Source: Chloroflexota bacterium
Lineage (GTDB): Bacteria > Chloroflexota > Anaerolineae > J036 > Brachytrichaceae
Length of the DNA stretch: 50,066 nt
Assembly: GCA_030550095.1 (NCBI GenBank)
Contig: JAUQQA010000014.1
Coordinates: 1 to 50,066 of the forward strand
Direction: 5' to 3'
In this document: positions 5,407-50,066 of the stretch, piece by piece
Position numbering within the stretch: position 1 is the stretch's first letter
Layout: the number at the start of each line of letters is the position of its first letter
Program-made: the position numbers and the translations under genes
Notes under the pieces: generated by a model
What the model was told of the DNA's origin: nothing
What the model saw: the letters and a program-made list of their open reading frames with translations, nothing else
Databases searched by the model: none

Positions 5407-5434
5407 TTGACAATGAACTTTGGTGAAGTACAAT
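5407..5434 (+). promoter_or_regulatory. Sigma-70-type promoter of the LacI-type regulator gene
   Basis: A consensus -35 TTGACA (5407-5412), a 16-base spacer and -10 TACAAT (5429-5434) precede the regulator gene. Transcription would start near 5441. It is the best-matched promoter in the window. Confidence 0.75.
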
Positions 5435-5455: not shown

Positions 5456-6505
5456 ATGAACCAGATGGGGAGTGAAGCGCAGACGCACAAGCCAACCTTG
5501 CGGGATGTCGCCAAGCGCGCGAGGGTCTCGATGGGCACTGCCTCGCAGGCGTTGAACAACCGTCCTGGCGTGCTCCCCGAGACGCGCAAGCGTGTGCTTG
5601 AGGCAGCCGAGGCGCTGGGGTATCGCCCGCTGCGCGTCCATGCGCAGGCAGCGTTGAACGTGGTCGGCATGTTGGTGAAGCATGACTACGGCTTGCCGCT
5701 CGCGTTCAACCCGTTTTTCTCGCAAGTGCAGGCGGGCGTGGAGCAAGAGTGCCGTGCGCAGCACCTCAGCCTCATGTTTGCCACCATCGAGGTGGATCGG
5801 AGCAATCGCCCGCTGGAGTGGCCTCGCATGGTGGAAGACAACAGCGTGGACGGCTTGTTACTCATCGGCACAAACATCGAATCCACTGCCGAGGCGTTGC
5901 GCCAGCGCTTGCTTAACAAGCCCATCGTGTTGGTGGATAGCTACGCGCGTGGCTTTCCTTTTGATAGCGTGCTGATTGACAACGTAGGAGGCGCAACGCA
6001 AGCCGTGCGCCACTTGCTCGAGCTTGGACACCGGCATATCGGTTTGATTGGCTCTAACCCTGAGTCGCCTCCTGACATCCTCGAGCGGCGCCAAGCCTAC
6101 ATCACTACGCTGCGCGCCCATGATGTGGAGCCTCTTTACATCGAGGACGGGCTTATGACGCGCGAAGCCGGCTACGAGGCGCTGCGCTGCCTGCTGCGCC
6201 GCGCGCCACAGGTGACGGCAGTGTTTGTGGTGAACGACGACACGGCGATCGGTGTGTTGCACGCCGCGCAAGACATGGGCCTGCGCATCCCTGAAGACCT
6301 CTCGATCGTTGGCTTTGACGACATCGCGCCCGCTAGCCAGGTGCGCCCAGCGCTCACTACAGTGCGCGTGCCGAAGATCTGGCTCGGGCGCTTAGGCGTG
6401 CGGCAACTCATCGAACGCAGTCGCCATCCTGATCAGCCTCAGGTGACCCTCACGCTGGCTACAGAGCTTGTTGTTCGTCAATCCTCCGGGCCTTGCACAC
6501 GCTGA
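5456..6505 (+). CDS. LacI-family transcriptional regulator
   Basis: A 349-residue regulator. The N-terminal helix-turn-helix (about 14-58) contains TLRDVAKRARVSMGTASQAL followed by the hinge-type ETRKRVLEAAEALGYRP. The rest is a periplasmic-binding-protein-like sensor domain (for example HRHIGLIGSNPESP and LSIVGFDDIAPASQVRP). Such proteins repress or activate sugar genes in response to a sugar ligand. It starts 22 bases after a TTGACA/TACAAT promoter and has inverted repeats at that promoter. The alternative ATG at 5465 is possible. GH130 begins 3 bases after the stop, so regulator and enzyme are almost certainly co-transcribed, which suggests control of oligosaccharide use. Confidence 0.93.
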   Translation: MNQMGSEAQTHKPTLRDVAKRARVSMGTASQALNNRPGVLPETRKRVLEAAEALGYRPLRVHAQAALNVVGMLVKHDYGLPLAFNPFFSQVQAGVEQECRAQHLSLMFATIEVDRSNRPLEWPRMVEDNSVDGLLLIGTNIESTAEALRQRLLNKPIVLVDSYARGFPFDSVLIDNVGGATQAVRHLLELGHRHIGLIGSNPESPPDILERRQAYITTLRAHDVEPLYIEDGLMTREAGYEALRCLLRRAPQVTAVFVVNDDTAIGVLHAAQDMGLRIPEDLSIVGFDDIAPASQVRPALTTVRVPKIWLGRLGVRQLIERSRHPDQPQVTLTLATELVVRQSSGPCTR

Positions 6506-6508
6506 GCC

Positions 6509-7495
6509 ATGACCCCACTTACCCTCAACACGCCACCCATCCCCAACTTGCCGTGGGAAGAACGCCCTGCTGGCAGCAGCGCTGTGATCTGGCGCTACAG
6601 CCGCAACCCCATCATCGGGCGCGACGCAACGCCCACTAGCAACAGCGTGTTCAACAGCGCTGCAGTGCCCTTCCAAGGGCGCTTTGCGGGCGTTTTTCGC
6701 GTGGACGACACGCGCCGCGTGATGAACTTACATGCTGGCTTCAGCGACGACGGCTTCCACTGGCGCATTAACCCAGAGCCGATCCGCTTCGTGTGCGAGG
6801 ACGGGGAGATCGCGCGTTTTGAGCATCGCTACGACCCGCGCGTGTGCTGGATCGAAGATCGCTACTACGTCACATGGTGCAACGGCTACCACGGCCCAAC
6901 CATCGGTGTGGGCTACACGTTCGACTTTCAGACGTTCTATCAACTCGAAAACGCCTTTTTGCCTTATAACCGCAACGGCGTGCTCTTCCCGCGCAAGATC
7001 CGCGGCAAGTACGCCATGCTCAGCCGCCCTAGCGACCGCGGGCACACGCCGTTCGGCGACATCTTCTACAGCGAAAGCCCAGACCTGATCCACTGGGGGC
7101 ATCACCGCTGGGTGCTTGGCCCGTTCGCGCCCTGGTGCAGCACTAAGATCGGTGCAGGGCCAACGCCAATCGAGACCAGCGAAGGCTGGTTGCTTATCTA
7201 CCACGGCGTGATTACTTCGTGCAACGGCTTCACGTACAGCTTCAGCGCGCTGTTGCTTGACCTCGACGAGCCTTGGCGCGTGATCGCGCGCGCAGAGCCT
7301 TATCTCCTTTCGCCGCAGATGCTTTACGAGTGCGTTGGGGACGTGCAAAACGTCGTCTTCCCCACAGCTGCGCTGGTGGACGGGGCGACAGGGCGCATGG
7401 CGATCTACTACGGCGCAGCAGATACGGTGACCGCGCTTGCGTTTGCTTACGTGCACGAGGTTGTAGATTGGGTCAAAGCAAACACAGCGAAATGA
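6509..7495 (+). CDS. GH130-family glycoside phosphorylase/hydrolase
   Basis: A 328-residue five-bladed beta-propeller enzyme of the GH130 type. Characterised members act on beta-mannosides, mostly by phosphorolysis to mannose 1-phosphate, some by hydrolysis. The conserved Asp is in HRYDPRVCW (Asp109). Other signatures are [22 protein letters not shown] with Lys213, and LLIYHGV with His232. Basic residues of this type bind phosphate, which favours a phosphorylase, but the subfamily is not certain. There is no signal peptide, so it acts in the cytoplasm on imported oligosaccharides. It sits 3 bases after the LacI-type gene and 25 bases before a secreted repeat protein. GH43/GH32-like propellers are the nearest alternatives. 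Confidence 0.82.
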
Positions 7496-7520: not shown

Positions 7521-10500
7521 ATGACCGCTAACCGCAGCGTGCGGATCCTGACAGCGATCAGCCTTGTTTTTGGAGGCTGGTCATTGCTTGCCTTTCCGCT
7601 GAGCAGTCCAAGCCGCGCAAGCGCAACCCAACACGCTAACGCCGAGGCTTTGCTCCTCACCGAGCGCGTTGGGGTCCATGCGAGCAGGATGCAACTTTTC
7701 CCCGCAGCCACACCGACGACGCCACCGCTACCGCCAGGATGCGTTCGCCCCATCTACCTGGACGCTTTGGAGCCAGGTTGGCAAAACTGGTCTTGGGGCG
7801 GCACGTACGACCTTGCCCACACAGGCACCGTCTATGAAGGCAATTTCGCCATCGAGGTCAACATGGGTCCCGGCTATGCGGGGCTTTCGTTTCGGGTTGA
7901 CCCAGGCATCCCAGGGAACGCCTATCAGAGCATTCTTTTCTGGGCACACGGCGGCGCGAGCGGCACACGCCAGTTGCAGGTTGTAGTGGAAGAAGGCGAT
8001 TCGGGTCCGCGCACGGCGGCGTTTTACGTGGATGTGCCCGCGGGGAAATGGACGCAGTTCATCGTGCCGCTCAGCGCGTTGGGCAGCCCTGCAACGATCA
8101 AGCGCGTGAACATCGAGGATCGAACGGGCGCAGGGCAACCGACGTTCTACATTGACGCGCTCTGCCTGAGCAGTCTCACCCCGCCACCACCGCCGCCTCC
8201 GCCGCCGGATTGCACCACGCCCGCGTATCTCGACGCGCTCCAGCCCAACTGGCAAAGCTGGTCGTGGGACGGCAGCTACGACTTTGCAAACAGCGCCCCG
8301 GTGTACGAGGGCAACTTCTCCATCGCCGCGACAATCACAAACGCGTACGGCGGTCTTTCGCTGCGCGTCGATCCTGGCTTGCCCAGCAGCAGTTACACCT
8401 CCATCCGCTTTTGGGTACACGGTGGCGCGAGCGGCACGCGCCAGTTGCAGGTCGTGGTGCAGCAGGCGGACGTTGGTCAAGAGACGACGCCCTTTCCCTT
8501 TGACGCGCCCGCTGGCACGTGGACGCAAGTGATCGTGCCGTTAAGCGCGTTGGGCAATCCTGCCACGATCAAGCGCATCAACATTCAAGATCGCAGCGGA
8601 GCGCCGCAGCCCACGTTTTACGTGGATGTGGTGTGTGTGAGCAATGCGCCGCTCCCACCCCCGCCACCACCGCCTCCACCGCCGCCCCCGCCGCCACCGC
8701 CAAGCCCGCCTCCCTCGCGCTCGCCAGGCATTCCTGGCTGCGCTTATACGCTCTACGATGATGCGTTGGCGGATGGCTGGGAGGATTGGTCGTGGAACAC
8801 CAACGTGGCGCGTGAGCATCCATACGCGCTGAGCGGCAAGGCGCTCGCGTTTCAATACCGCGAGGGCTACGCCGGTCTTTCGCTGCGGACGCCCGTCGCA
8901 CTCAGCCGCAGCGACTACGACGCAATTGCGTTTTGGATCAGCGGCGGCGAAGACCCTGGCGTGCGCCAGATCATGTTCTTGGTGCAGAGCGCCGACGACG
9001 GCGCCGAATCGCGCCGTTTCCACATTGACGTGCCCGCGCGCACGTGGAAACAGGTGATCATTCCGCTTGCCTTGCTCCGCAACGTCATCGCCATCAAACG
9101 GCTTAACTTTCAAGAGCGCACAGGGCAAGCGCAAGCGCCCATCTTCCTGGATAACATCTGCTTTTTGCGCGATACGGGCGGCGTGGACTTAAACGGAATG
9201 GTCTTTGTCGAGCCAGGCGATTACCTGATCTTCGACGAGACCACCGGCGAGGATGTGGAGAACTGGTCATGGGACACCGTGATCAGCTTCGCCAATGAGC
9301 AGCCTGCTATCGGCTTGCGCTCGCTTGCTGTGCAGCACCAGAAGGGCTATGCAGGGCTTTCGCTGCGCTTGAAACAAGCGCTCAACGCGGCAGATTTCGG
9401 CGGCATCGTCTTCCGCGTGCACGGTGGCGAGCAGGGACGGCGGCAGCTCGACTTCTTCATTCAGCAGGCCGACGAGGGCGCCGAAAGCCAGCGCATTTCG
9501 TTCGACGTGCCGGCAGGACAGTGGTACGAAGTCGCGATTCCGATCAGCGCGCTCGGCGATGTGCGCGCGATCAAACGCATCAACATGCAGGACGCAACCG
9601 GCAAGCCGCAGCGCTACTTCCTCGATAACCTTGTGCTTGTGCGGCGCGCGGTTTCGCTCACCTTGCCTGCGCCGCGCGTGGCTGAGCCCGCACCAGCATT
9701 AGCTGCGGGCGCGCCTACATTGCCGCAGGGCTTCGTGTACCAAGACGCGCTCGCGCCGGGCTGGGAGAACTGGTCGTGGGAGACGCAAGTGAACTTCACC
9801 AACGCGCAGCCTGCGCTCGGGCGGCGATCCATCGCCGTGCGCTACACGAAAGGCTATGCTGGGCTTTCACTGCGCGCGCCGATCACGTTGAACGCGCGCG
9901 ATTACAGCGCTGTGGTGCTTTGGGTCCACGGCGGTGAGGCTGGTGAGCGTCAGCTGCGCTTCTTTGTGCAGCAAACCGACACCGGCGGCGACTCGCGCGC
10001 GATCCCGATCGAGGCGCCCGCAGGCGTTTGGACCCCGATCACCATTCCGCTCAGCTACCTCGGCGAGCTGACCACGATTAAGCGATTGAACCTGCAAGAG
10101 TTCAGCGGCGCAGAACAGCCCGCGTTCTACGTGGACAACATCCAACTGCTGCGCGAGGCTGCCACCACCACGCTCCCACAACCCAACGTCGGTGCCACCC
10201 CCGAAGGCGGCTTCGTGGTGTATCGCAATGGCTACCTTGCTGACGGGTGGGAGAACTGGTCGTGGGATACGCGCGTGAACTTCCGCAACCGCGAGCCGGT
10301 GTTGTTCAGTTCGCGCTCCCTGGCAGTGCAGAGCAAGGCGGCTGGCGGGCTTTCGCTGCGCGCGCCGATCACGATCGAGACAAGCCGCTACGGCGGCATC
10401 CTGTTCCGCATCTTGGGCGGCGACACACGCCCGCGCCGGTTGCAGCTCTTCTTGCAAACGGCAGACGATGGCGGCGAAACGCCGAGCTTTGTCTTCGATG

Positions 10501-11096
10501 CGACACCGCGACGCTGGTTGACCTTCACCGTGCCATTTAGCGCGTTGGGCAACCCTGCTGTTCTAAAGCGCATCAACATCCAAGACCTGAGTGGCGCTTC
10601 TGAAACCACGTACTACATTGACGAGATCGCGCTGCTGCCACCGCGCGCACAGCCAAGCCCCCCGCGCTCGCCTCACGAGGTGCTCTTCGGCAACATTCTG
10701 GCGCGCGGCTGGCGCGAGACTTCACAGGGCGTGCAAGTCTCGCTGCGCGAGGAGCGCGTTGTGCGCGCGATGTATGCCATCTCGGTGCAAGCGTTGCAGC
10801 CCAACGCTGTGTTTAGGCTGGAGGCAGCGCAGCCGCTGGATGCGCGCGAGTTTGAGGCGCTCTCGTTCTGGGTAAATGGTGGCGCGCAAGGCGTGCAGGG
10901 GTTGCGGGCACGTGTGTACTCAAACCAAGGCACAACGCCCCTAGAGGTGGGCTTCGACGCTCCCGCCAATGCATGGCGCGAGGTGCGTTTGCCGCTCGAA
11001 CGACTTGACACCATACAGGCGTTTGAGATCGTGTCACCTGCGGGGGCACAGTTCTATGCGGATGACATCCGCTTGCTGCGTGCGCGACAGCCGTAG
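7521..11096 (+). CDS. Secreted seven-repeat 'WSW' protein, carbohydrate-binding-like
   Basis: A 1191-residue exported protein with a signal peptide (about 1-36). The body is seven ~140-residue repeats starting near residues 77, 233, 407, 562, 737, 897 and 1052. Each begins DALxPGWxNWSWxT, continues YAGLSLR, then FWVHGGxxGxRQLxxxxQ, then VPAGxWxxxxxPLSALGxxxxIKRxNxQ, and ends FYVDNIxLL. This is a jelly-roll-like pattern reminiscent of carbohydrate-binding domains. Repeat 7 has lost the WSW core. Proline runs (residues ~221-229 and ~379-400) separate repeats 1-2 and 2-3. No catalytic domain or wall anchor is evident. I do not recognise a named family. Position after GH130 and before an importer suggests glycan capture. 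AGAGGGA precedes the ATG. Confidence 0.8.
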   Translation: MTANRSVRILTAISLVFGGWSLLAFPLSSPSRASATQHANAEALLLTERVGVHASRMQLFPAATPTTPPLPPGCVRPIYLDALEPGWQNWSWGGTYDLAHTGTVYEGNFAIEVNMGPGYAGLSFRVDPGIPGNAYQSILFWAHGGASGTRQLQVVVEEGDSGPRTAAFYVDVPAGKWTQFIVPLSALGSPATIKRVNIEDRTGAGQPTFYIDALCLSSLTPPPPPPPPPDCTTPAYLDALQPNWQSWSWDGSYDFANSAPVYEGNFSIAATITNAYGGLSLRVDPGLPSSSYTSIRFWVHGGASGTRQLQVVVQQADVGQETTPFPFDAPAGTWTQVIVPLSALGNPATIKRINIQDRSGAPQPTFYVDVVCVSNAPLPPPPPPPPPPPPPPPPSPPPSRSPGIPGCAYTLYDDALADGWEDWSWNTNVAREHPYALSGKALAFQYREGYAGLSLRTPVALSRSDYDAIAFWISGGEDPGVRQIMFLVQSADDGAESRRFHIDVPARTWKQVIIPLALLRNVIAIKRLNFQERTGQAQAPIFLDNICFLRDTGGVDLNGMVFVEPGDYLIFDETTGEDVENWSWDTVISFANEQPAIGLRSLAVQHQKGYAGLSLRLKQALNAADFGGIVFRVHGGEQGRRQLDFFIQQADEGAESQRISFDVPAGQWYEVAIPISALGDVRAIKRINMQDATGKPQRYFLDNLVLVRRAVSLTLPAPRVAEPAPALAAGAPTLPQGFVYQDALAPGWENWSWETQVNFTNAQPALGRRSIAVRYTKGYAGLSLRAPITLNARDYSAVVLWVHGGEAGERQLRFFVQQTDTGGDSRAIPIEAPAGVWTPITIPLSYLGELTTIKRLNLQEFSGAEQPAFYVDNIQLLREAATTTLPQPNVGATPEGGFVVYRNGYLADGWENWSWDTRVNFRNREPVLFSSRSLAVQSKAAGGLSLRAPITIETSRYGGILFRILGGDTRPRRLQLFLQTADDGGETPSFVFDATPRRWLTFTVPFSALGNPAVLKRINIQDLSGASETTYYIDEIALLPPRAQPSPPRSPHEVLFGNILARGWRETSQGVQVSLREERVVRAMYAISVQALQPNAVFRLEAAQPLDAREFEALSFWVNGGAQGVQGLRARVYSNQGTTPLEVGFDAPANAWREVRLPLERLDTIQAFEIVSPAGAQFYADDIRLLRARQP
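8182..8722 (+). repeat. Two proline-codon (CCN) runs forming linkers
   Basis: Runs of CCG/CCA/CCT/CCC codons at 8182-8208 and about 8656-8722 encode the poly-proline linkers between repeats 1-2 and 2-3 of the WSW protein. The second run is long enough to vary in length between strains or to be misassembled. Confidence 0.75.
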
Positions 11097-11139: not shown

Positions 11140-14100
11140 ATGCGATTCAGATACCTTGCAAGATTCGCAGTAATCGCTATTGCAGCATTTGCAGCGGCAT
11201 GGCTTGCGCGCCAAGCCTCTGCAGCCACGATCACCGTGACGCTAGACTTCGACCGTTTTGACGGGTCAGCGACCAGCGGCTGCTCGCTGCGCGAAGCGAT
11301 CCAGTCGGCAAACACGAATGCGGCGTTTGCAGGCTGCCAAGCGAGTGGCGCATTTGGCGACGACGTGATCGTGTTTGATAGCGCCGTGAGCACGGTGTCC
11401 ATCACGCGCACGGTGAGTGGTGGGAACAACGACAACGAAGACGGCGACCTCGATGTTTACGTGGGGAGCATCAGCGGCACGCTCACCATCCGTGGTCCGG
11501 TGACGGTGGAGGTGCAAGGGCTTTTTGACCGTGCCTTTGACGTGTATCCCGATGGCTCAGACCAAGGCACGTTCACGCTAGAGCAGGTCACCGTGCGCGG
11601 CGGCGACTTGCGCTTGGGGCCAACGACGGACAACACGACCGTGAGCAGCGCGCAGCTTGAATGCGTGTACGGCGGCGGCGGCGTGCGCCTAAACGCGGGA
11701 GTGAAGGGCGTGCTGGACGGCGCAGCGGTGCGCGAAAACAAAGCTGCATACGCGGGCGGCGGGATCTGTGTGCAGGCTGGGGCGTCGTTGGTGATGAGTG
11801 GGACGCGCGTGCTCTCGAACACGGTGGGCTTGGCGGGCAACCAGCAAGTGGACTATGTGCTCGGCGGCGGCGGGATTTGGAGCAGTGGCGCGTTGGTGAT
11901 CACCAACGGCGAGGTGTTGCACAACCGTGCAGTGCTCAGCGGCGGGTTCTACGGGTTTGCTGGCGGTGGCGGGATTGGCATCGTGACGGGCAGCCTGCAC
12001 ATCGTTGGCGGCGTGATCGGCGACAACACCGTGACGCAGAACGCGCCCGACCCGTACGAGGCGCAAGGCGGCGGCATCGTCGCACTGCGGTTGGACTCGA
12101 CGCCGGCAGAAGTGACGCTCGACGGCGTGCGCGTCGAAGGCAACCGCGTGCTGAGTGGGGCTTTCTCCTATGGCGGTGGTGTGGCGCTGTTGCAGGGTGT
12201 GCGCGCCGTCATCACGAACAACGCGGTGATCTCGGACAACGCGGTGAGCGCGCTGCAAAGCCTGCACGGCGGCGGCATCGCGGTGGGGCTTTTGTATCAG
12301 CCGAGCGGCTATCTTGCGCCGAGCGTCGAAATACACGGCGCAAAGGTGCACAACAATCGGGTGACCGCGACGGCGGATGCGCTCGCCGGGGTGATAACGC
12401 CCACAGCCTTCGGTGGCGGCGTGTTCCTCGGGCAAGGGGTGGTCTTCACCGTCACACAGGTGGAGATCGAGAAGAACACCGTGCTTTACGCAGGCACCAC
12501 GCCGACCAATACGAACGCTTTCGGCGGCGGGATGAGCCTCTTCGCGCATGGCGGCGGCGTTGTAAGCAGCTCCGTGCTGCGCGGCAACGTCGTGCGCGGC
12601 TTTCGCTTTGTCGGCGGCGGTGGCGTGCACATCGGCGGCAGCGGCGCACAAATTCGGGAGACGACGCTTGCCGAGAACGCGGCGGAATCCTCGAGCGACA
12701 GCGCGGCGGGCGTGCTCGGCGGTGGTGCTTATATCAACAGGGGCGAGACGCTGCTCGAGGATGTGCGCGTGCTGACCAACGTGATCACCGGCACGCAATT
12801 CGCCAGCGGCGGTGGCGTTGCCGTGGACGACACCCTGCGCGCCAAGGGATTGACAGCGCGCGGCAACCGTGCCCGTGTCGGCGGCGGGCTTTTCGTGAAT
12901 GGGAGCGGCAGCGCGTTCGTAGAAGCAAGCCGCTTTGAGGAAAATACTGCGGCGAGCGATGGTGGAGGCGTGGGTGTAGATGGCAAACTGAGCATCACTG
13001 CGACGTTGGTCACAAGCAACACTGCGCTGCAAGGCGGCGGCATGGCGGTCGGCGGCAGCGCGGAGATGCGTGCGCGCGCGCTTACCCTCACGCACAACGT
13101 GGCTGATGGCACCAGCTTTGCGCAGGGTGGCGGGTTGTTTGGCGGCGGCGACGTCTTCCTTGCAGAGAGCGTGATCGCGCACAACCACGCGCAAGCACCG
13201 AATTACGCTGCGGGCGGCGGTGTGTATCGCTACGGTGGTAACTTCCACCTCGGCGATTCCACGCTTAGCGACAACTTTGCCACCAGCGGCGGCGATGTGA
13301 AAGCCGGCGGCTGGTACGGCGCCAACAGCACAGGCTTTTTCACCAACGTGGTGATCGCGCGCAACGTCGCCTCGGCGACCAACTTCGTCTTCGGCGGCGC
13401 GATCTGGATCACGCAGACGACGCTCACGCTCTCGAACGTGGACCTGCTCACGAACACGGTGCGCTCGCAGAACCAGATCGCCAAAGGCGGTGCCATCGCG
13501 CAGGAGTTGGATGCGCGCGTTGTGCTGATCGACAGCCGTGTGGTCAACAACCAAGCGCACTCGGCAAACAACAACGCTTACTCGGGTGGCTTTGACGTTG
13601 GGAACAAAGCGACGTTGCTTATCACGGCGTCGCGCATTGTGAGCAACGCAGCAATTGGCGGCAACGACAGCGGCAGCGGCGGCATCGGCAACCAAGGCAC
13701 GGTGCGCTTGATCACCACCACGCTCAGCCGCAACGCGGTGCTCAGCGCGACGACAAGCCAACCAATCGGCGCAGGTGGTGGCATCGGCAACGGCGGCGTG
13801 CTGCACATCGAGGCGTCGAGCATTGTGAGCAACGTGGCGAGCACGGGCGCAGGGATCAACACCTACGGCAACGCCGAGACGCACATCCTGAACAGCACGC
13901 TAAGCGGCAACCAGGCGAGCAGCACGGGGATCGGCGGCGCGATCTTGACGGGCACTGCGCGCCTCACGCACACCACGGTTGCTAGCAACACAGGCGTCGG
14001 CCTTGCCCTTGGCGGGAGCGCTTTGGTCGTCCGCGCGACTGCGGTAGCGCATCACACTGGCGGCAATTGCGCTAATTGGGGCGGCAGCGTGAGCAATAGC

Positions 14101-14391
14101 GATTACAGCGTGAGCGACGATGCAACCTGTGCGAGCTTCTTCGTGGGCACAAACGCGCTGAACAACGCTGCGTTCACGCGCCTCGCACCGTTGGCGCTGC
14201 ATTTAGGCACGGGCACGTGGTATCACGCGACGCTCGTCGGCAGCGTGTTGCACGAGCGCGTGCCAGCAGGCGATTGCCCTGCGACAGACCAACTCGGGCA
14301 GCCGCGTCCAGGTGTGGCGGCTTGCGATACGGGCGCGTTCGAGTTGCAAAGCTTCTTCCGCGTCTTCGCGCCGATCGTGCGCCGACAGTGA
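11140..14391 (+). CDS. Secreted CSLREA-domain parallel beta-helix protein
   Basis: A 1083-residue exported protein. A signal peptide covers about 1-29 (FAVIAIAAFAAAWLARQASA). The CSLREA motif follows (GCSLREAIQSANTN, near residues 47-60). The rest is a right-handed parallel beta-helix with many GGG-rich coils of the form 'xxNxAxxGGGxxV', as in adhesin-like and Chlamydia Pmp-like proteins. The C-terminus ends RVFAPIVRRQ, like the hydrophobic-Pro-hydrophobic-Arg motif seen in other secreted proteins here. No catalytic pectinase residues are recognisable, so the role is probably surface binding. The ATG at 11140 has AAGGGAGG 6 bases upstream; the open frame starting at 10969 overlaps the previous gene and is rejected. 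Confidence 0.85.
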   Translation: MRFRYLARFAVIAIAAFAAAWLARQASAATITVTLDFDRFDGSATSGCSLREAIQSANTNAAFAGCQASGAFGDDVIVFDSAVSTVSITRTVSGGNNDNEDGDLDVYVGSISGTLTIRGPVTVEVQGLFDRAFDVYPDGSDQGTFTLEQVTVRGGDLRLGPTTDNTTVSSAQLECVYGGGGVRLNAGVKGVLDGAAVRENKAAYAGGGICVQAGASLVMSGTRVLSNTVGLAGNQQVDYVLGGGGIWSSGALVITNGEVLHNRAVLSGGFYGFAGGGGIGIVTGSLHIVGGVIGDNTVTQNAPDPYEAQGGGIVALRLDSTPAEVTLDGVRVEGNRVLSGAFSYGGGVALLQGVRAVITNNAVISDNAVSALQSLHGGGIAVGLLYQPSGYLAPSVEIHGAKVHNNRVTATADALAGVITPTAFGGGVFLGQGVVFTVTQVEIEKNTVLYAGTTPTNTNAFGGGMSLFAHGGGVVSSSVLRGNVVRGFRFVGGGGVHIGGSGAQIRETTLAENAAESSSDSAAGVLGGGAYINRGETLLEDVRVLTNVITGTQFASGGGVAVDDTLRAKGLTARGNRARVGGGLFVNGSGSAFVEASRFEENTAASDGGGVGVDGKLSITATLVTSNTALQGGGMAVGGSAEMRARALTLTHNVADGTSFAQGGGLFGGGDVFLAESVIAHNHAQAPNYAAGGGVYRYGGNFHLGDSTLSDNFATSGGDVKAGGWYGANSTGFFTNVVIARNVASATNFVFGGAIWITQTTLTLSNVDLLTNTVRSQNQIAKGGAIAQELDARVVLIDSRVVNNQAHSANNNAYSGGFDVGNKATLLITASRIVSNAAIGGNDSGSGGIGNQGTVRLITTTLSRNAVLSATTSQPIGAGGGIGNGGVLHIEASSIVSNVASTGAGINTYGNAETHILNSTLSGNQASSTGIGGAILTGTARLTHTTVASNTGVGLALGGSALVVRATAVAHHTGGNCANWGGSVSNSDYSVSDDATCASFFVGTNALNNAAFTRLAPLALHLGTGTWYHATLVGSVLHERVPAGDCPATDQLGQPRPGVAACDTGAFELQSFFRVFAPIVRRQ

Positions 14392-16296: not shown

Positions 16297-17307
16297 ATGC
16301 CACTCGCATACCTTCTGCGGCGCGTTGCGTTCATGATCTTCGTGGTCTGGTCGGCGATCACGCTGCTGTTCTTCTTGCCGCGCCTTTCGCCGATCAACCC
16401 CGTGCGTGAACGCTTCGCGGAGTTACAGCGCTCCACAGGGTGGGCGCCGCGCGATCTCGAGCGTTTGGTGAAGGTGTACGAGGTGAAGTTCGGCTTGAAC
16501 AAGCCGCTGCATGAGCAGTACGTGGATTACATGAGCAGCTTGCTGCGCGGCGACCTCGGCTACTCGATCATGCGCTATCCGCGCACAGTGGGCGATCTCA
16601 TCGCGCAGGCGCTGCCCTGGACGATCGGCTTGCTTAGCGTGACCACGCTGCTCACGTTTGGGATCGGCACCGGCATTGGTGCGCTTGCTGCTTGGCCCCG
16701 CAGCCCGCAATGGGTGAAAGGTCTGGTCACCCCGCTGGTGGTCTTAGCAGCGATCCCGCCATATTTGCTCGGCTTGCTGCTGATTTACTTCATCGCCTTC
16801 CGCGCCAAGCTGCTGCCGATGGGCGGCGCTTACACTTTGGGGCGCTTCACCGGGCCAGAGTTGAGTTTTCCTTTCTTGCTTGACGTGGCGCGACATGCCA
16901 TCTTGCCTGCGCTCTCGCTCATCCTCTCGACGGTGGGCTTTTGGGCGCTGGGGATGCGCGGTATGGGCGTCACCGTGCAGGGCGAGGACTACGTGACGTT
17001 CGCGGAGCACAAAGGCTTAAGCTTGCGGCGTATCTTCTACGCTTACTACGTGCGCAACGCGATCTTGCCGCAGGTGACCGCGCTAGCACTCGCCTTCGGG
17101 AGCATCGTCTCCTCGGGCATTCTCGTCGAATACCTTTACGGTTTCCCTGGGCTTGGCTCGCTGCTGAACGCGGCGATCCTCGCCAACGATTTCTTCGTGA
17201 TCTACGGCATCGGCTTGATCACGATCCTCGCTGTGGCGGTTAGCATGATGGTGGTGGACTTGCTCTATCCGTTGCTCGACCCGCGCATTCGCTACACGCG
17301 CGCATGA
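16297..17307 (+). CDS. ABC importer permease, DppB/OppB-like
   Basis: A 336-residue inner-membrane permease with about six transmembrane segments. The first is at residues 8-28 (VAFMIFVVWSAITLLFFLPR). The cytoplasmic EAA-type coupling loop is EDYVTFAEHKGLSLRRIF, followed by NAILPQVTALA, typical of DppB-type subunits. It pairs with the DppC-like permease 10 bases downstream to form the pore. It starts 4 bases after the binding-protein stop, so tight co-expression is expected. Confidence 0.93.
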   Translation: MPLAYLLRRVAFMIFVVWSAITLLFFLPRLSPINPVRERFAELQRSTGWAPRDLERLVKVYEVKFGLNKPLHEQYVDYMSSLLRGDLGYSIMRYPRTVGDLIAQALPWTIGLLSVTTLLTFGIGTGIGALAAWPRSPQWVKGLVTPLVVLAAIPPYLLGLLLIYFIAFRAKLLPMGGAYTLGRFTGPELSFPFLLDVARHAILPALSLILSTVGFWALGMRGMGVTVQGEDYVTFAEHKGLSLRRIFYAYYVRNAILPQVTALALAFGSIVSSGILVEYLYGFPGLGSLLNAAILANDFFVIYGIGLITILAVAVSMMVVDLLYPLLDPRIRYTRA

Positions 17308-17317
17308 GGTAAACGCA

Positions 17318-18226
17318 ATGGCAATTGCGCTCGACCCCCAAGCGCCTCTCATCGCGCAGCCCTCGCGCTGGACGTTGGTGCTGCGTTACTTGCGCCGCAA
17401 CCCAAGCTTGCCGCTGGGGCTTGTGCTGCTGATCTTCCTCGTCGGCTTTGGCGTGATCGGCTCGTTGCTGATTGATACGAGCACACGCGCGTATCCGCTG
17501 GCGGCGCCGCCCGTGCAGCCGCCGAGCGCCGAATATCCACTCGGCACCGACCGCGACGGGCGCGACTTGCTCGCAGTGATGGTGCGCGGCGTGTTGCTCA
17601 CCGGAGCTGTAGGCTTGATGGCGGGCACGGTCGGGATCGTAGTCGGCACAACAGTGGGCTTTGTGGCGGGCTACTTCGGTGGCTGGGTGGATGCTGTGAT
17701 CCGCTGGCTCACCGAAGTGTTGATGACCATTCCGCCTTTGGTGTTGCAGGTGATCATCGCCAGCACCATTGTGGACAAGAACAAAGTCACCATCTTCACC
17801 ATGGCGGGCGTTGCCTCGGTGCTCGCCTGGATGGGCACGGCGCGCATGGTGCGCGCGCAAGTGCTGAGTTTGCGTGAGCGCGCGTTCGTCAACATGGCGC
17901 GTCTCTCGGGGATGAGCAACCTTGAGATCATCTTCCGCGAGCTGATGCCAAACATGCTGCCGTATCTCGCGGCGAGTTTCGTCGGCGCGGTGATGGGCGC
18001 GATCGGCGCCTCGTTTGGCTTGGAAGCGCTCGGCTTGGGGCCCGTGCGCGAGCCCACCATCGGCATGACTATCCGCTGGGCGGTGTACCACTCCGCGATC
18101 TTCAACCAGTGGTGGTGGTGGGTGCTTTGGCCGGTGCTGGCGTTGATCCTCATTTTCGCTTCGCTTGCGCTGATCAACCGCGGATTGGACGAGCTGGCGA
18201 ACCCGCGTGTGCGGAGGACGGAATGA
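17318..18226 (+). CDS. ABC importer permease, DppC/OppC-like
   Basis: A 302-residue permease with an N-terminal OppC_N segment (RYLRRNPSLPLGLVLLIFLV), the conserved GTDRDGRDLLAVMVRGVL stretch and a coupling loop (RERAFVNMARLSGMSNLEII) before ELMPNMLPYL. The loop has RLSG where AxGAS-type sequence is usual. It forms the pore with the preceding permease. AGG within the upstream stop region is the likely ribosome binding site. The stop overlaps the next ATPase start by 4 bases (ATGA). Confidence 0.92.
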   Translation: MAIALDPQAPLIAQPSRWTLVLRYLRRNPSLPLGLVLLIFLVGFGVIGSLLIDTSTRAYPLAAPPVQPPSAEYPLGTDRDGRDLLAVMVRGVLLTGAVGLMAGTVGIVVGTTVGFVAGYFGGWVDAVIRWLTEVLMTIPPLVLQVIIASTIVDKNKVTIFTMAGVASVLAWMGTARMVRAQVLSLRERAFVNMARLSGMSNLEIIFRELMPNMLPYLAASFVGAVMGAIGASFGLEALGLGPVREPTIGMTIRWAVYHSAIFNQWWWWVLWPVLALILIFASLALINRGLDELANPRVRRTE

Positions 18227-19263
18227 CGCTGCAAGAATCCCCCGTGTTGCGCGTGCGCGACCTGCGCGTGACGTATTACACAGACGCCGGGCGCGTGACG
18301 GCAGTGAACGGCGTGAGCTTTGACCTCGCGGCTGGCGAGCGGTTGGGCTTGGTGGGCGAATCGGGGTGTGGCAAATCCACGCTCGCGCTCGCGCTGATGC
18401 GCATGATCAAGCCGCCCGGGCGCATCGAGTCGGGCAGTGCAGTGGTGCGCACCGAACACGGCGAGATGGACCTCCTCGCGCTCGACGAGGAATCCATGCG
18501 CAAGGCGCGCCTAAGCGTGATCAGCTACATCCCGCAGGGCGCGATGAACGCATTGAACCCCGTGTTGCGCGTAGGACAGCAGATGCTGGACGCATTGCAA
18601 GCGCACGCGCCTCATCTTTCGCGTGCAGAGATGCGCGCGCGCGCCGAAGCAGCGTTGGCGTCGGTCGAATTGCCCAAAGACGTGTTCGACCGTTATCCTC
18701 ACGAGCTGAGCGGCGGCATGAAACAGCGCGTGTGCATCGCGATCGGCATTCTGCTCAGCCCACGCGTGATCATCGCCGACGAGCCGACGAGCGCGCTCGA
18801 TGTCGTCGTGCAGCGCCAAGTGATGGAGACGTTGCAGCGCGTGCAAGAGCAGCTCGGCGCGGCGCTGATTCTGATCGGGCATGACATGGGCTTAATGGCG
18901 CAGGTGACCCACCGCGTCGCGGTGATGTATGCCGGGCAATTTGTCGAGGTCAGCCCTGTGCAAGCGATGTTCACGCAGCCGCTGCACCCCTACACCCAAG
19001 CGTTGATCCAAAGCCTGCCGCGGCTAGATAACCGCGGCGTGTTCCGCAGTTTGCCCGGCGTCGCGCCCTCGCTGTTGCGCTTGCCAAGCGGCTGTGTGTT
19101 TCACCCGCGCTGCGCTCAAGTGATGGAGGTGTGTCGTCGCGAGCCTCCGCCTGCGGTGCATACCGCTGATGCGCGTTTCGTGCTGTGTCATCTTTACGGA
19201 GACGACGAGAACGTTGCGCCGCGCGCGACGCTGACGACATCGCCGCAGGAGGTGCGACGGTGA
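18223..19263 (+). CDS. ABC importer ATPase, DppD/OppD-like
   Basis: A 346-residue ATP-binding subunit. Walker A is GESGCGKST, the signature is ELSGGMKQRV, and Walker B is VIIADEPTSALD. The C-terminal oligopeptide/dipeptide extension has the cysteine-bearing GCVFHPRCAQVMEVC stretch, which in some homologues binds an iron-sulfur cluster. The ATG at 18223 overlaps the permease stop and has GCGGAGGA upstream. It works as a heterodimer with the next ATPase. Confidence 0.93.
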   Translation: MTLQESPVLRVRDLRVTYYTDAGRVTAVNGVSFDLAAGERLGLVGESGCGKSTLALALMRMIKPPGRIESGSAVVRTEHGEMDLLALDEESMRKARLSVISYIPQGAMNALNPVLRVGQQMLDALQAHAPHLSRAEMRARAEAALASVELPKDVFDRYPHELSGGMKQRVCIAIGILLSPRVIIADEPTSALDVVVQRQVMETLQRVQEQLGAALILIGHDMGLMAQVTHRVAVMYAGQFVEVSPVQAMFTQPLHPYTQALIQSLPRLDNRGVFRSLPGVAPSLLRLPSGCVFHPRCAQVMEVCRREPPPAVHTADARFVLCHLYGDDENVAPRATLTTSPQEVRR

Positions 19264-20261
19264 CGCCACTGCTTGAGCTGCGCAACGTGAGCAAGGCCTA
19301 CATGCGCGGCGTGTTTGGGCGCGAGCGTTTCGTCGCGCTGCAAGGTGTGGACCTCGCCCTCGATGAAGCACGCCCGACCATCATCGCCATCGCTGGTGAG
19401 AGCGGCAGCGGCAAAAGCACGCTCGGCCTGCTCGTGCTTGGCTTGCTCCAACCCACCGAAGGCGTGGTGTTGTACCGCGGCAAGGCCGTGAGCACACTGC
19501 GTGGCGCTGATTACCAACGCTTTCGGCGCGAAGTGCAAGCGGTGTTCCAAGACCCGTTCGCAGTGTTCAACCCGTTCTACAAGGTGGATCACCTGCTTCA
19601 GGTGCCGATTGAGAAGTTCAAGCTTGCGCGTTCGCGCCACGAGGCACGGCGCATGATGGAAGACGCGCTCCAGGCAGTAGGTCTGCGCCCTGAAGAAGTG
19701 CTTGGTCGGTATCCACATCAGCTCTCGGGTGGACAACGCCAACGCATTGCAGTGGCGCGCGCGCTCGTGCTTAAGCCGCGCTTGCTGGTTGCTGACGAAC
19801 CCGTCTCGATGGTGGATGCCTCATTGCGCGCAGCGATCCTGGAGAGCTTGCGGCGCATGCGCGATGAGCACGGCATCTCCATCCTTTACATCACCCACGA
19901 TTTGACAACGGCGTATCACGTCGCGGATTCGATCCTCGTGCTTTACGCAGGGCGCGTGGTTGAAGCAGGCGAAGTGGAGCGCGTGATCCGTGCGCCGAAA
20001 CATCCCTACACCCAGCTTCTGATTGATTCCATCCCTTGGCCTGATGTGACACAGCCTTGGGGGAGCAAACCGCTGGCGAAGCGCGAGGGCGAACGTGCTT
20101 CAGTGGGATCGGGCTGTCGCTTTGCGCCGCGCTGTCCGTCGGCGATGCCTCATTGTTGGCAGCGTGTGCCGCCGCTGTATCGCCTCGCCCCTGAGCACGT
20201 CGTCGCTTGTTACCTCTACGAGTCGGAACAGGCAGCGCAGGCCGACATCGCTCGCGCTTAA
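19260..20261 (+). CDS. ABC importer ATPase, DppF/OppF-like
   Basis: A 333-residue ATP-binding subunit with Walker A GESGSGKST, signature QLSGGQRQRI and Walker B LLVADEPVSMVDASLR. This Walker B/D-loop form resembles, from memory, family-5 importers of thermophiles that carry oligosaccharides, unlike the DEPVSALD of E. coli OppF; this is suggestive only. The C-terminal GCRFAPRCPSAMPHC is the usual oligopeptide-type extension. GTG start at 19260 overlaps the previous stop by 4 bases and has AGGAGG 6 bases upstream. Last gene of the importer operon. Confidence 0.92.
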   Translation: MTPLLELRNVSKAYMRGVFGRERFVALQGVDLALDEARPTIIAIAGESGSGKSTLGLLVLGLLQPTEGVVLYRGKAVSTLRGADYQRFRREVQAVFQDPFAVFNPFYKVDHLLQVPIEKFKLARSRHEARRMMEDALQAVGLRPEEVLGRYPHQLSGGQRQRIAVARALVLKPRLLVADEPVSMVDASLRAAILESLRRMRDEHGISILYITHDLTTAYHVADSILVLYAGRVVEAGEVERVIRAPKHPYTQLLIDSIPWPDVTQPWGSKPLAKREGERASVGSGCRFAPRCPSAMPHCWQRVPPLYRLAPEHVVACYLYESEQAAQADIARA

Positions 20262-46177: not shown

Positions 46178-46223
46178 AGTGAGGGTATATCTATTGCGCC
46201 ACATTGCTTTGGGGAGATGTTCG

Positions 46224-47774
46224 ATGAGAGCTGCATTCAGGTTTTTGCAGATCGGCATTGCTAGCGTAGTGCTTGCCGCTACTTTGATGCCTACAAGTGC
46301 TCAGCCTAGTTTCGCAGGCAGTAACTCAACAAGACAGATTGCTCTGCCGCTACAACAAAGCACAATCCAGGTTTATTTGCCTCTTGTCATGAAGAGGTAT
46401 CCTTGGGTTTTGCCTTTTGGTGTTGAGTCGAACTTGACCATCACGACAACCTCCGTTCTCTACACGCGCACGCTCGAACTCCAGCCAGGCTGGATTCGCT
46501 TGAATGATCGCATTTCGTGGAGAAGGCTTCAGGCTTCAGAAAACAGCCCGATTGACTGGTCCCAGCTACAGGGCTTTGAGAACGAATTGCGCCTGCTGCG
46601 CCAAATGGGCATTCGCCCGATAGTCGTTGTGGATGATCATCCACTGTGGGCTACGCGCGGGCGCTTAGGCTCGGATGGTCAGCCATCCCATTGCGATGCG
46701 ATACGAGAGGATAAGTTTCAAGCGTTTGCCAATTTTGTCGCACAACTTGTGCGCCGCTATAAAGCGGCAGAGTTTAATGTGCGCGACTGGGAGCTTGGTA
46801 ACGAGCCAGACGTCGATCCGAGTCTAGTTCCAAGTAATTCAGCTTTCGGATGCTGGGGTGACATCTCAGACCCGTACTATGGAGGCGAAGGGTATGGGCG
46901 CATGCTTCGAGCTGTAGCTCCTGCTATTCGGCGCGAGGACCCTGGCGCGCGCATTTGGATTGGTGGGCTGTTGCTTAGCTCGCCAGGTATTGACGAAGGA
47001 CCAAGCCGCGGATCACCAGGAAAGTTCCTTGAGGGTGTTTTGAGGGCCGGTGCGGCTGATTCGTTCGACGTCGTTGCCTTTCACGCCTACTTACCCTATG
47101 CAGAGCGGGATGGTCAGCCAATTCTTCTGGACTATGACTATGCTTTTGGTACGGCGCCGAGCGTCTCTTGGTCCAGCTTGAATGCGGAGAGCTTCGTTGC
47201 TGCCAAAGCCAAATATCTCCGCGAGGTGATGAGCAGGTATGGCGTGAGCAAGCCATTGTCCTTGAATGAGATTGCTCTCATGTGCCCGAACGACTCATTC
47301 CAAAGCCGAGAGTACTGCATCAACCCGACCAATAATTTCTTTGATATGAAGGCAAGTGCGCTTGTTCACTTTGCTGTTCGCTCGCTTGCCTCGGGTGTAG
47401 AAAGCTTTATCTGGTACACAATTAATGGTCCTGGCTGGCGCAATGCAGGGCTGTTGGACGGCACTCAGAGTCCAAGACCTGCTTTTTTAGCCTACAAGAC
47501 GCTTAGTGCCCACCTTTACGATTCTGAGTTCGTCAGCAAAGAGACTCGTTCAGATTCACTGCAACGGTATATCTTTAGGGGTAGGCACAACCTCCTTGTT
47601 GATGTTGCCTGGTCGATCAGCGGGACTATCACAAGTACTTTAGCAATTTCATCCAGCAAATTCATCACAGCTACTCAGCGTGATGGGTTGCCACTTGCGC
47701 CCATGAGAGAGGATGGCGTAAACAAGTACTTCGATGTGGGTCTCTCACCTGTATACATTGTTAGAAGACCATGA
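46224..47774 (+). CDS. Secreted clan GH-A glycoside hydrolase (GH39/GH5-like)
   Basis: A 516-residue exported protein with a signal peptide to about residue 26 and a short VYLPLVMKR motif (50-58) near the mature N-terminus. The TIM-barrel domain has the acid/base Glu194 in WELGNEPD and a likely nucleophile Glu349 in SLNEIAL, spaced as in clan GH-A. The substrate is not clear; xylosides, iduronides and rhamnose-containing glycans are known targets of relatives. GGGGAG is 8 bases before the ATG. The stop overlaps the next gene by 4 bases. Base composition is visibly lower in GC than genes upstream. Confidence 0.78.
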   Translation: MRAAFRFLQIGIASVVLAATLMPTSAQPSFAGSNSTRQIALPLQQSTIQVYLPLVMKRYPWVLPFGVESNLTITTTSVLYTRTLELQPGWIRLNDRISWRRLQASENSPIDWSQLQGFENELRLLRQMGIRPIVVVDDHPLWATRGRLGSDGQPSHCDAIREDKFQAFANFVAQLVRRYKAAEFNVRDWELGNEPDVDPSLVPSNSAFGCWGDISDPYYGGEGYGRMLRAVAPAIRREDPGARIWIGGLLLSSPGIDEGPSRGSPGKFLEGVLRAGAADSFDVVAFHAYLPYAERDGQPILLDYDYAFGTAPSVSWSSLNAESFVAAKAKYLREVMSRYGVSKPLSLNEIALMCPNDSFQSREYCINPTNNFFDMKASALVHFAVRSLASGVESFIWYTINGPGWRNAGLLDGTQSPRPAFLAYKTLSAHLYDSEFVSKETRSDSLQRYIFRGRHNLLVDVAWSISGTITSTLAISSSKFITATQRDGLPLAPMREDGVNKYFDVGLSPVYIVRRP

Positions 47775-50066
47775 GCCTAGGAGCCTGCAAGTTTCTTCGG
47801 CTCTTCTTTGCTCTAGGAGTGCTGCTCACGGACACATCCCTATGGACGGGCTCCTACGCTCACCAGTCTCAAGAAAGTGAGTCTTCACCTAGCAGCAAGT
47901 TCTCTTGTGAGCTTTCCCAAGCACAGCCTATATGGGTGAGAGGTAGCAATCCTGCGCAACTAGAAGTTGGACTGTTCCGAAAGCGTTTTTACCTAAGCAG
48001 AGACTCAAGCGTTAGGGTTCGCATCTTTGCCGATACGCGCTACGAAATCTGGATAGATGGGAACTGGGTAGGCAGGGGACCAGCGAGATTTTCGAGGGCT
48101 TATCGTGAATTCGACGTACACGAGCTGCCGCAAGTGCCGGCAGGTATTCATCAGGTTGCCGTGCTTGTTCAATGGGCACCAAACACGAGACGTTCAGAGT
48201 CGATACTTCCCTATTTGATAGGGACCATAGAAGCTGAAGAAGTCTGTATTAAAACAGACTCTAGCTGGAAGGCGAATCTTTCACAAGCTTGGCGAAGAGA
48301 TTCAGCTCTGGTGCACGCCTGGCACTTAATCGGACCGACAGAGCTGCTAGATTTTTCTCAACTTCCTGGTGATTGGATTGATTTAACATTTGACGACAGT
48401 AGTTGGGCTAATGCCGAAGTTAAGACTCTTTCAGCACCTATCACCTATGCACCACGTTCGATACCCTTGCTTGCCGAAACTAAAATTCTGCCACGCTTTG
48501 TAGAGGGTGGATTCCTTGCAAAAGGAAAAGATGCTTTATTCGTAAGCGGCACTTCCCAGATTATGCTTTACATTGGGTCCTCCAAGAGTATAACCATAGA
48601 AACTCTGAAGCTAGGTGGGCATTGGCCTACAAATACGCTCTATCTGAACGGCGTGGCGCTTGAGTGGCATCCTGTAGGAGAGACCCGAGTCGATGCACTA
48701 TACTCCCAGCTTAACCTGAGACAAGGTGTTCATTACCTTCAATTCGTTGACGCGCCTGCTGGTACGCCGCTCCTCTTCTCAGAGAGGGTCACACTCTTGA
48801 GCTTTGACGATCTCAGGAATCCTTGGAATCCTCATGCAGGCATGAGGAATTTATTGCCAGACTTAACGCCTGCCCAAGATATTCCGGAAGTCAGTGCTTC
48901 GCCTCAAGGCTTGACGCTCACGTTTCGTCAAGCGCCAGCTTACGCAATATTGGACCTGGGTCGGGTTGTGCATGGTCGTGTAGTTGCTGAGGTTGCAGGT
49001 CCTCCTGGGGCCGTTGTTGACATTGGATGGGATGAGCGACTATGGCATAATAGACCATTGCCTTTCCCTGGCTCTCTTCATCCAGAAATGAATCAGGTGG
49101 ATTCCTGGAGGCTGGATGGTTCCCAGCGCATAATGAGCACAATTGATGCACGTGCGGGACGGTTTCTGTGGGTCAGCGTCTGGAGTGCCAATCAACCAGT
49201 CACTCTGAGAAATCTTCGAGTGTTGGAGGAGCATTACCCGTTCTCCACAAGAGGCTCTTTCAGCAGTAATGACCTGATGCTCGATAAAATTTGGCGCGTT
49301 GGTGTCGACTCATTAATCCCTAACATGACGGATGCGTACACAGACACCCCTTGGCGGGAGAGAGGACTATGGTGGGGAGACGCCTACGTGATGTTTAAAA
49401 TTAACCAAGTTGCTTTCGGAGATCTTGCTCTCTTCAAGCGTTCCATAAAGTTGATGGGGGATGGCATTGACACCAATGGTAAGCCTTCTGCATTTGTCCC
49501 AGGCGGATCTTCGGTGATGATCCTAGACTTCGGAATGCTGTGGGTACAGGGTTTGCGAGAGTACTACCAAATTAGCAGAGACCTGGACTTGCTCAGAACT
49601 TATTATCCTGCATTACAGCGCTTGATGAGCTATATCGGTAACTATAGGAATCCCAACACCGGGATGTTGGATATCCCGGTGCAGCACTGGTCCCAAAGCG
49701 CTCTTATAGACTGGTCAAATCCCTATGCGCGCTACGGTCAATCTGCTGCACTGAACAGCATGTATTTCAAAACTTTGCAGGATGCAGCTTTTATTGCCCA
49801 CGTAATTGGTCGTGCCTCAGATGCGATTGGCTACTCCCAATCTGCTGATAGGGTATTGCAGGGCCTTTCCACTCTTCTATTCCAGCCATCTCTTGGGCTA
49901 TACGTGGAGACAATTCTAGGAGGTCAAACACTTCCTCCTTCCCTTCATGCTCAAGCATGGCCTTTAAGTAACGATGCGGTTCTGCCACAGCATAGAAAGC
50001 GCGTGGCTCATGGATTGATAGGTTTGATTTCGCTCCAACCGCAGGATAGGTTGAGTGTGCCTTCTT
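47771..50066 (+). CDS. Secreted GH78-like alpha-L-rhamnosidase, 3' end outside the window
   Basis: An open frame of 765 codons without stop to the window end; it has no stop here and so is easily missed. It starts at an ATG overlapping the previous stop (ATGA). The N-terminus is signal-like (FLRLFFALGVLL, cleavage near residue 30). Beta-sandwich regions precede an (alpha/alpha)6 barrel with TDTPWRERGLWWGDAY. Asp525, Glu530 and Asp537 keep the spacing of Asp567, Glu572 and Asp579 of Bacillus RhaB, where Glu572 is the acid. The general base would lie beyond the window. It is likely to release rhamnose or act on related debranching, together with the upstream glycosidase. GC is again low. Confidence 0.8.
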   Translation, partial: MSLGACKFLRLFFALGVLLTDTSLWTGSYAHQSQESESSPSSKFSCELSQAQPIWVRGSNPAQLEVGLFRKRFYLSRDSSVRVRIFADTRYEIWIDGNWVGRGPARFSRAYREFDVHELPQVPAGIHQVAVLVQWAPNTRRSESILPYLIGTIEAEEVCIKTDSSWKANLSQAWRRDSALVHAWHLIGPTELLDFSQLPGDWIDLTFDDSSWANAEVKTLSAPITYAPRSIPLLAETKILPRFVEGGFLAKGKDALFVSGTSQIMLYIGSSKSITIETLKLGGHWPTNTLYLNGVALEWHPVGETRVDALYSQLNLRQGVHYLQFVDAPAGTPLLFSERVTLLSFDDLRNPWNPHAGMRNLLPDLTPAQDIPEVSASPQGLTLTFRQAPAYAILDLGRVVHGRVVAEVAGPPGAVVDIGWDERLWHNRPLPFPGSLHPEMNQVDSWRLDGSQRIMSTIDARAGRFLWVSVWSANQPVTLRNLRVLEEHYPFSTRGSFSSNDLMLDKIWRVGVDSLIPNMTDAYTDTPWRERGLWWGDAYVMFKINQVAFGDLALFKRSIKLMGDGIDTNGKPSAFVPGGSSVMILDFGMLWVQGLREYYQISRDLDLLRTYYPALQRLMSYIGNYRNPNTGMLDIPVQHWSQSALIDWSNPYARYGQSAALNSMYFKTLQDAAFIAHVIGRASDAIGYSQSADRVLQGLSTLLFQPSLGLYVETILGGQTLPPSLHAQAWPLSNDAVLPQHRKRVAHGLIGLISLQPQDRLSVPS

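Follow-up and report, generated by a model that had tools for sequence, protein, structure and literature searches.

The window analysed here, that is, the whole 50,066-nt stretch of contig JAUQQA010000014.1 from a Chloroflexota bacterium of the Brachytrichaceae, carries a set of genes on the forward strand in the order LacI, GH130, CBM8 array, CSLREA/choice-of-anchor Q protein, SBP_bac_5 lipoprotein, two permeases and two ATPases. The array gene is embedded in this sugar-uptake operon, whose genes are spaced some 3-71 bases apart. The features of the operon are as follows:

5407-5434 (+), promoter-like TTGACA-16-TACAAT ahead of the operon, just before LacI, matching 11/12 consensus positions in a region where such sites are not more numerous than in shuffled sequence
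5456-6505 (+), LacI-family regulator
6509-7495 (+), GH130, nearest to the beta-1,4-mannoside phosphorylases UhgbMP, RaMP2 and TM1225
7521-11096 (+), CBM8 array protein of 1191 aa with seven modules in tandem, ATG start
11140-14391 (+), secreted CSLREA/choice-of-anchor Q protein, probably a beta-helix
14463-16292 (+), SBP_bac_5 lipoprotein (lipobox by eye), whose nearest PDB relative is a mannoside-binding protein (4pfu/4pfw/5hm4)
16297-17307 (+), ABC permease 1
17318-18226 (+), ABC permease 2
18109-19263 (+), ABC ATPase 1, whose actual start probably lies further in
19185-20261 (+), ABC ATPase 2

Near its far end, the window also holds a 531-aa open reading frame (46179-47774) with no Pfam or NCBIfam match and, at 47771-50066, the first part of a rhamnosidase-like (PF17389) protein that runs past the window end.

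The array protein is built from seven repeats of ~140 residues with pairwise identities of 24-64%, namely R1 (residues 76-217), R2 (233-376), R3 (409-552), R4 (566-712), R5 (737-878), R6 (898-1043), and R7 (1051-1188). A profile made from R1-R6 only retrieved R7 with 50 bits and an E-value of 1.2e-17 (calculated for this single protein); because R7 had been left out of that profile, its kinship with the other repeats is not due to chance. An earlier note, made by reading the DNA alone, had rightly counted seven repeats and recognized that the last one lacks the WSW core, which is replaced by TSQ. The opening DALxPGWxNWSWxT and the ending YVDNI that it attributed to six of the repeats held only in part: WSW is indeed present in R1-R6, but its surroundings vary in R1-R4 and R6, the repeats end, from R1 to R7, in YIDAL, YVDVV, FLDNI, FLDNL, YVDNI, YIDEI, and YADDI, and both exact strings occur jointly in R5 alone. 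A Pfam scan found neither a catalytic nor a known anchor domain in the protein, which is organized as follows:

7521-7625 (+), putative signal peptide, residues 1-35, ending in SRASA before TQ, by eye from the translation
7746-8171 (+), CBM8 module R1, site W W Y E
8172-8216 (+), poly-proline linker
8217-8648 (+), CBM8 module R2, site W W Y Q
8649-8744 (+), long poly-proline linker
8745-9176 (+), CBM8 module R3, site W W Y Q
9216-9656 (+), CBM8 module R4, site W W Y Q
9729-10154 (+), CBM8 module R5, site W751 W753 Y779 Q859, structure predicted
10212-10649 (+), CBM8 module R6, site W W A Q, without the third aromatic
10671-11084 (+), terminal CBM8-fold module R7, T Q N V, without binding site

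The repeats belong to the known CBM8 family. Scanning PDB sequences with a profile of R1-R7 retrieved 7T7Y, the crystal structure of Dictyostelium CBM8 (E 4.4e-13), which also came first (E 3.3e-14) with a 66-module profile of the repeats and their relatives; the second match of the latter was the CBM29-like insert of MtGlu5 (E 3.5e-6). The AlphaFold2 model of R5, computed from 66 aligned modules, is a confident beta-sandwich (pLDDT 96.9, pTM 0.91). Its best Foldseek match in the whole PDB was again 7T7Y (TM 0.85, E 2.3e-9), and VIA-align aligned 138 positions of the two with a Z-score of 21.2 and an rmsd of 1.7 Å, followed by CBM29-2 (Z 16.5). The R7 model (pLDDT 85.8) keeps the beta-sandwich and also resembles 7T7Y best (Z 17.2, rmsd 2.1 Å, 134 aligned), with CBM29 close behind (16.1). 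These structural matches back the suggestion in the earlier note of a tandem jelly-roll (beta-sandwich) carbohydrate-binding module. Its statement that no family could be recognized does not stand, since repeat profile, Foldseek, and VIA-align all lead to 7T7Y; a strong match to an existing module family, which the note itself had named as the result that would overturn it, is thus what CBM8 provides. This family is easily overlooked here, because Pfam gives only weak superfamily matches (CIA30, CBM_11, MAM) and NCBIfam none for the array protein; no CBM8 entry is among the Pfam matches of the full protein or of single modules. Another beta-sandwich family (CBM11, CIA30, or CBM29) in place of CBM8 is highly improbable. 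CIA30 and CBM_11 do match the full protein with ~41 bits, over one stretch each, and CBM29 shares a W-W-Y platform, but single modules reach only E ~1e-3 or weaker against CBM_11/CIA30, and CBM8 is clearly ahead in both PDB profile and fold comparisons. The 66-module profile reached the CBM29 entry 1wcu with an E-value of 0.18. Of the other candidates considered, a novel family was ruled out by the same profile (7T7Y), Foldseek, and VIA-align results, and CBM11, CIA30, MAM, and CBM4_9 were discarded for the weakness of their single-module matches.

CBM8 is a barely studied family, with one solved member that is said not to fit the type A/B classes (PMC9079177). In this protein, DdCBM8, the planar binding site comprises W572, W574, and Y600 together with Q686; the W572A and Y600A mutations abolish binding, Q686A lowers it, and of the soluble ligands measured, glucomannan binds best (PMC9079177). 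Aligned to DdCBM8, the site residues read WWYE, WWYQ, WWYQ, WWYQ, WWYQ, WWAQ, and TQNV from R1 to R7. Hence, all four are kept in R2-R5, R1 has Glu for Gln, R6 is devoid of the Tyr, and R7 lacks the whole set. With these deviations in R1 and R6, the first six repeats combine sequence similarity to the characterized member, the beta-sandwich fold (from the R5 model), and the W-W-Y platform plus Gln, whereas R7 displays the fold in its model but not the W-W-Y-Q site. The WSW tryptophans also align with W249 and W251 of MtGlu5, whose double mutation reduces activity by ~80% (PMC9063844). Since the core tryptophans coincide with these residues of DdCBM8 and MtGlu5, homology makes a role in ligand contact very probable, as the earlier note had anticipated.

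Besides several partial sequences, the same bacterial family contains six full-length orthologues of 1320-1369 aa, which have eight modules and are 61-71% identical; public records list the relatives as Thermoflexales, Candidatus Roseilinea, or uncultured Anaerolineae. The W-W-Y-Q residues are retained in nearly all their non-terminal modules. By contrast, all six are without the tyrosine in the penultimate module and without the site in the last one, where the first site position holds A or T in every orthologue. As the last two modules are impaired alike in every full-length orthologue, the arrangement is a conserved design. In a tree of 55 modules, positions 4, 5, 6, 7, and 8 each form one clade, while positions 1-3 are mixed, which points to old duplications on the C-terminal side and to turnover towards the N-terminus, the region in which the array of the window is short of one module. 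The old duplication proposed in the earlier note is therefore upheld for positions 4-8 but not for positions 1-3. Among the 201 Chloroflexota genomes sampled, arrays were confined to the two representatives of this family, all remaining matches being single modules. Among 78 loci from a pattern-limited search of an 84,980-species collection, with the best 80 kept, the largest array outside this group has three modules. Otherwise, CBM8 stands alone or is attached to enzymes, as in other phyla, where it occurs with GH26 mannanase and the mannan-binding CBM27 (L061, L082) or with GH9 cellulase (L114). We found no paper describing tandem CBM8 arrays in the literature; three papers mention CBM8 together with Chloroflexi, in passing. 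The modules are thus known, and what is new is the architecture: many CBM8 modules in a row without an enzyme, specific to this bacterial family and ending in conserved modules that lack the site.

The genes around the array suggest what it may bind. The GH130 is very similar to the solved structures 4udg (E 2e-152) and TM1225 (E 6e-135), the latter a beta-1,4-mannooligosaccharide phosphorylase (PMC8950772), and the SBP matches the mannoside-binding 4pfu/5hm4 with an E-value of 1.9e-32. In L040 (G012), a GH5 endoglucanase comes after the genes for the array, the beta-helix protein, and the SBP; an 86% identical GH5 lies on another contig of the genome of the window and is nearest to the endoglucanase structure group 3amc/3mmu, named TmCel5A (PMC9063844). 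A GH1 adjoins the array in L038. From these lines, which converge with the fusions to GH26 plus CBM27 and to GH9 mentioned above, we infer a beta-1,4-mannan or beta-1,4-glucan ligand. Mannan would not be the sole one, since several array-bearing relatives are devoid of GH130 (no convincing copy in G009, G016, or G026, nor in G006 apart from a fragment), and the ligand of the array may be broader or species-dependent. The same absences, together with arrays that do not always lie beside a transporter (beta-helix and SBP neighbours are not next to the array in L038, L041, and L044), are compatible with an adhesin that fixes filaments to cellulose-like mat exopolysaccharide or plant litter for attachment instead of feeding. 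The lack of a catalytic domain fits this role, as do the close relatives named Candidatus Roseilinea and Thermoflexales, Roseilinea-like Chloroflexota MAGs having come from plant-litter biofilms in hot springs (PMC11071339). Yet the window gene lies within a tightly spaced sugar-uptake operon and no known anchor domain was found in its product, so we regard attachment as a tentative reading with rather low odds.

The best explanation, to which we assign a probability of roughly 0.65, is a secreted, enzyme-free, multivalent protein for capture of (gluco)mannan/beta-1,4-glucan that feeds ABC uptake. R1-R5 would each present a flat W-W-Y platform and R6 the two tryptophans only, complemented by Gln (R2-R6) or Glu (R1), to stack against chains of beta-1,4-linked glucan or glucomannan. 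Individually weak, such sites would gain avidity from their number, with proline-rich linkers carrying some of them, and the array could either fasten polymer or plant-wall/mat fibres near the cell or co-localize secreted enzymes with the fibres. Secreted glycanases, for example the TmCel5A-like GH5 of the same genome, would then release oligosaccharides that bind to the mannoside-type SBP lipoprotein, enter through the ABC transporter, and serve GH130 as substrate, with LacI controlling the pathway. Counting against this scheme are the array-bearing relatives without GH130, the loci where the beta-helix and SBP genes are not beside the array, and the searches that recognized no surface anchor in the protein and no GH26 in the genome of the window. 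Repeats, CBM8 membership, predicted fold, site conservation, operon order, and the relatives fused to mannanase and cellulase are computed results within this scheme; ligand, avidity, surface location, and the role of the terminal modules we infer, with a surface tether as conjecture and docking or anchoring by the last two modules as a guess in keeping with their conservation. The last module, site-less in every orthologue seen, retains conserved residues of its own (27 invariant columns, mean column identity 68%), as would be expected if the terminal site-less modules bound a partner protein, such as the beta-helix neighbour or secreted glycanases, in a small non-cellulosomal complex on the polymer. 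Indeed, the CSLREA/choice-of-anchor Q gene adjoins the array in L037, L039, L040, and L045 (44-66% identical), and its product at 11140-14391 is maybe a partner of the array or a lyase-like beta-helix. However, the beta-helix gene is not adjacent in three other relatives and neither dockerin nor cohesin was found in the operon proteins scanned, which makes such a scaffold unlikely. Similarly doubtful is a family-specific, enzyme-free fibre for glycan capture that would hold the polymer at up to seven CBM8 sites and use the conserved site-less C-terminal module for docking or surface anchoring, in a SusD-like capture step followed by ABC import.

Four known systems come closest. DdCBM8 of Dictyostelium discoideum CelA (7T7Y/7T7Z) shares fold, sequence profile, and the W572/W574/Y600/Q686 site aligned with R2-R5, but it is a single module on a GH9 endoglucanase, whereas here seven modules follow in tandem with no enzyme and the last one site-less. 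CBM29-1 and CBM29-2 of Piromyces equi Non-Catalytic Protein 1 (1WCU, 1GWM) likewise combine a beta-sandwich with a W-W-Y platform, although they are fewer in number and fall short of significant sequence similarity. The Piromyces protein, too, is non-catalytic and has its modules in tandem. The CBM29-like domain of MtGlu5 from Meiothermus taiwanensis (7VT4, 7VT8) has the WSW motif, with W249/W251 required for activity, and aligns with the R5 model over 117 residues (VIA-align Z 16.2), but is one insertion within a GH5 catalytic domain. Among the closest solved relatives of the window GH130 and SBP are products of the mannan uptake genes of Thermotoga maritima (TM1225 GH130; SBP 4PFU/5HM4). That locus is not known to include a tandem CBM8 protein, and its regulator is a different one; our literature search found no paper on TM1223/TM1226.

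As a naturally occurring CBM8 array whose sites are lost by degrees, the protein is useful for avidity tests and, coming from a lineage with hot-spring members, a possible glucomannan/cellulose probe; it also points to glycan capture in Chloroflexota independent of an attached enzyme. Other CBM8 proteins were met during the searches. Widespread among them are proteins of ~700 aa in which a single CBM8 at the N-terminus precedes a C-terminal part of ~500 aa that matches no Pfam entry, exemplified by L047:5826-7937 (contig C17 of the same genome as the window), L095:7929-10028, and many similar loci. They show weak similarity to GH51 arabinofuranosidases at 331-445, and their C-terminal part is possibly an uncharacterized glycoside hydrolase family. 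A protein of 2613 aa (L050:6964-14802) has a dockerin-like stretch besides its kelch and TIG repeats and carries a CBM8 at the C-terminus, and an expansin-like (DPBB_1) protein with a C-terminal CBM8 (L071:9935-11194) is encoded near two further CBM8 proteins.
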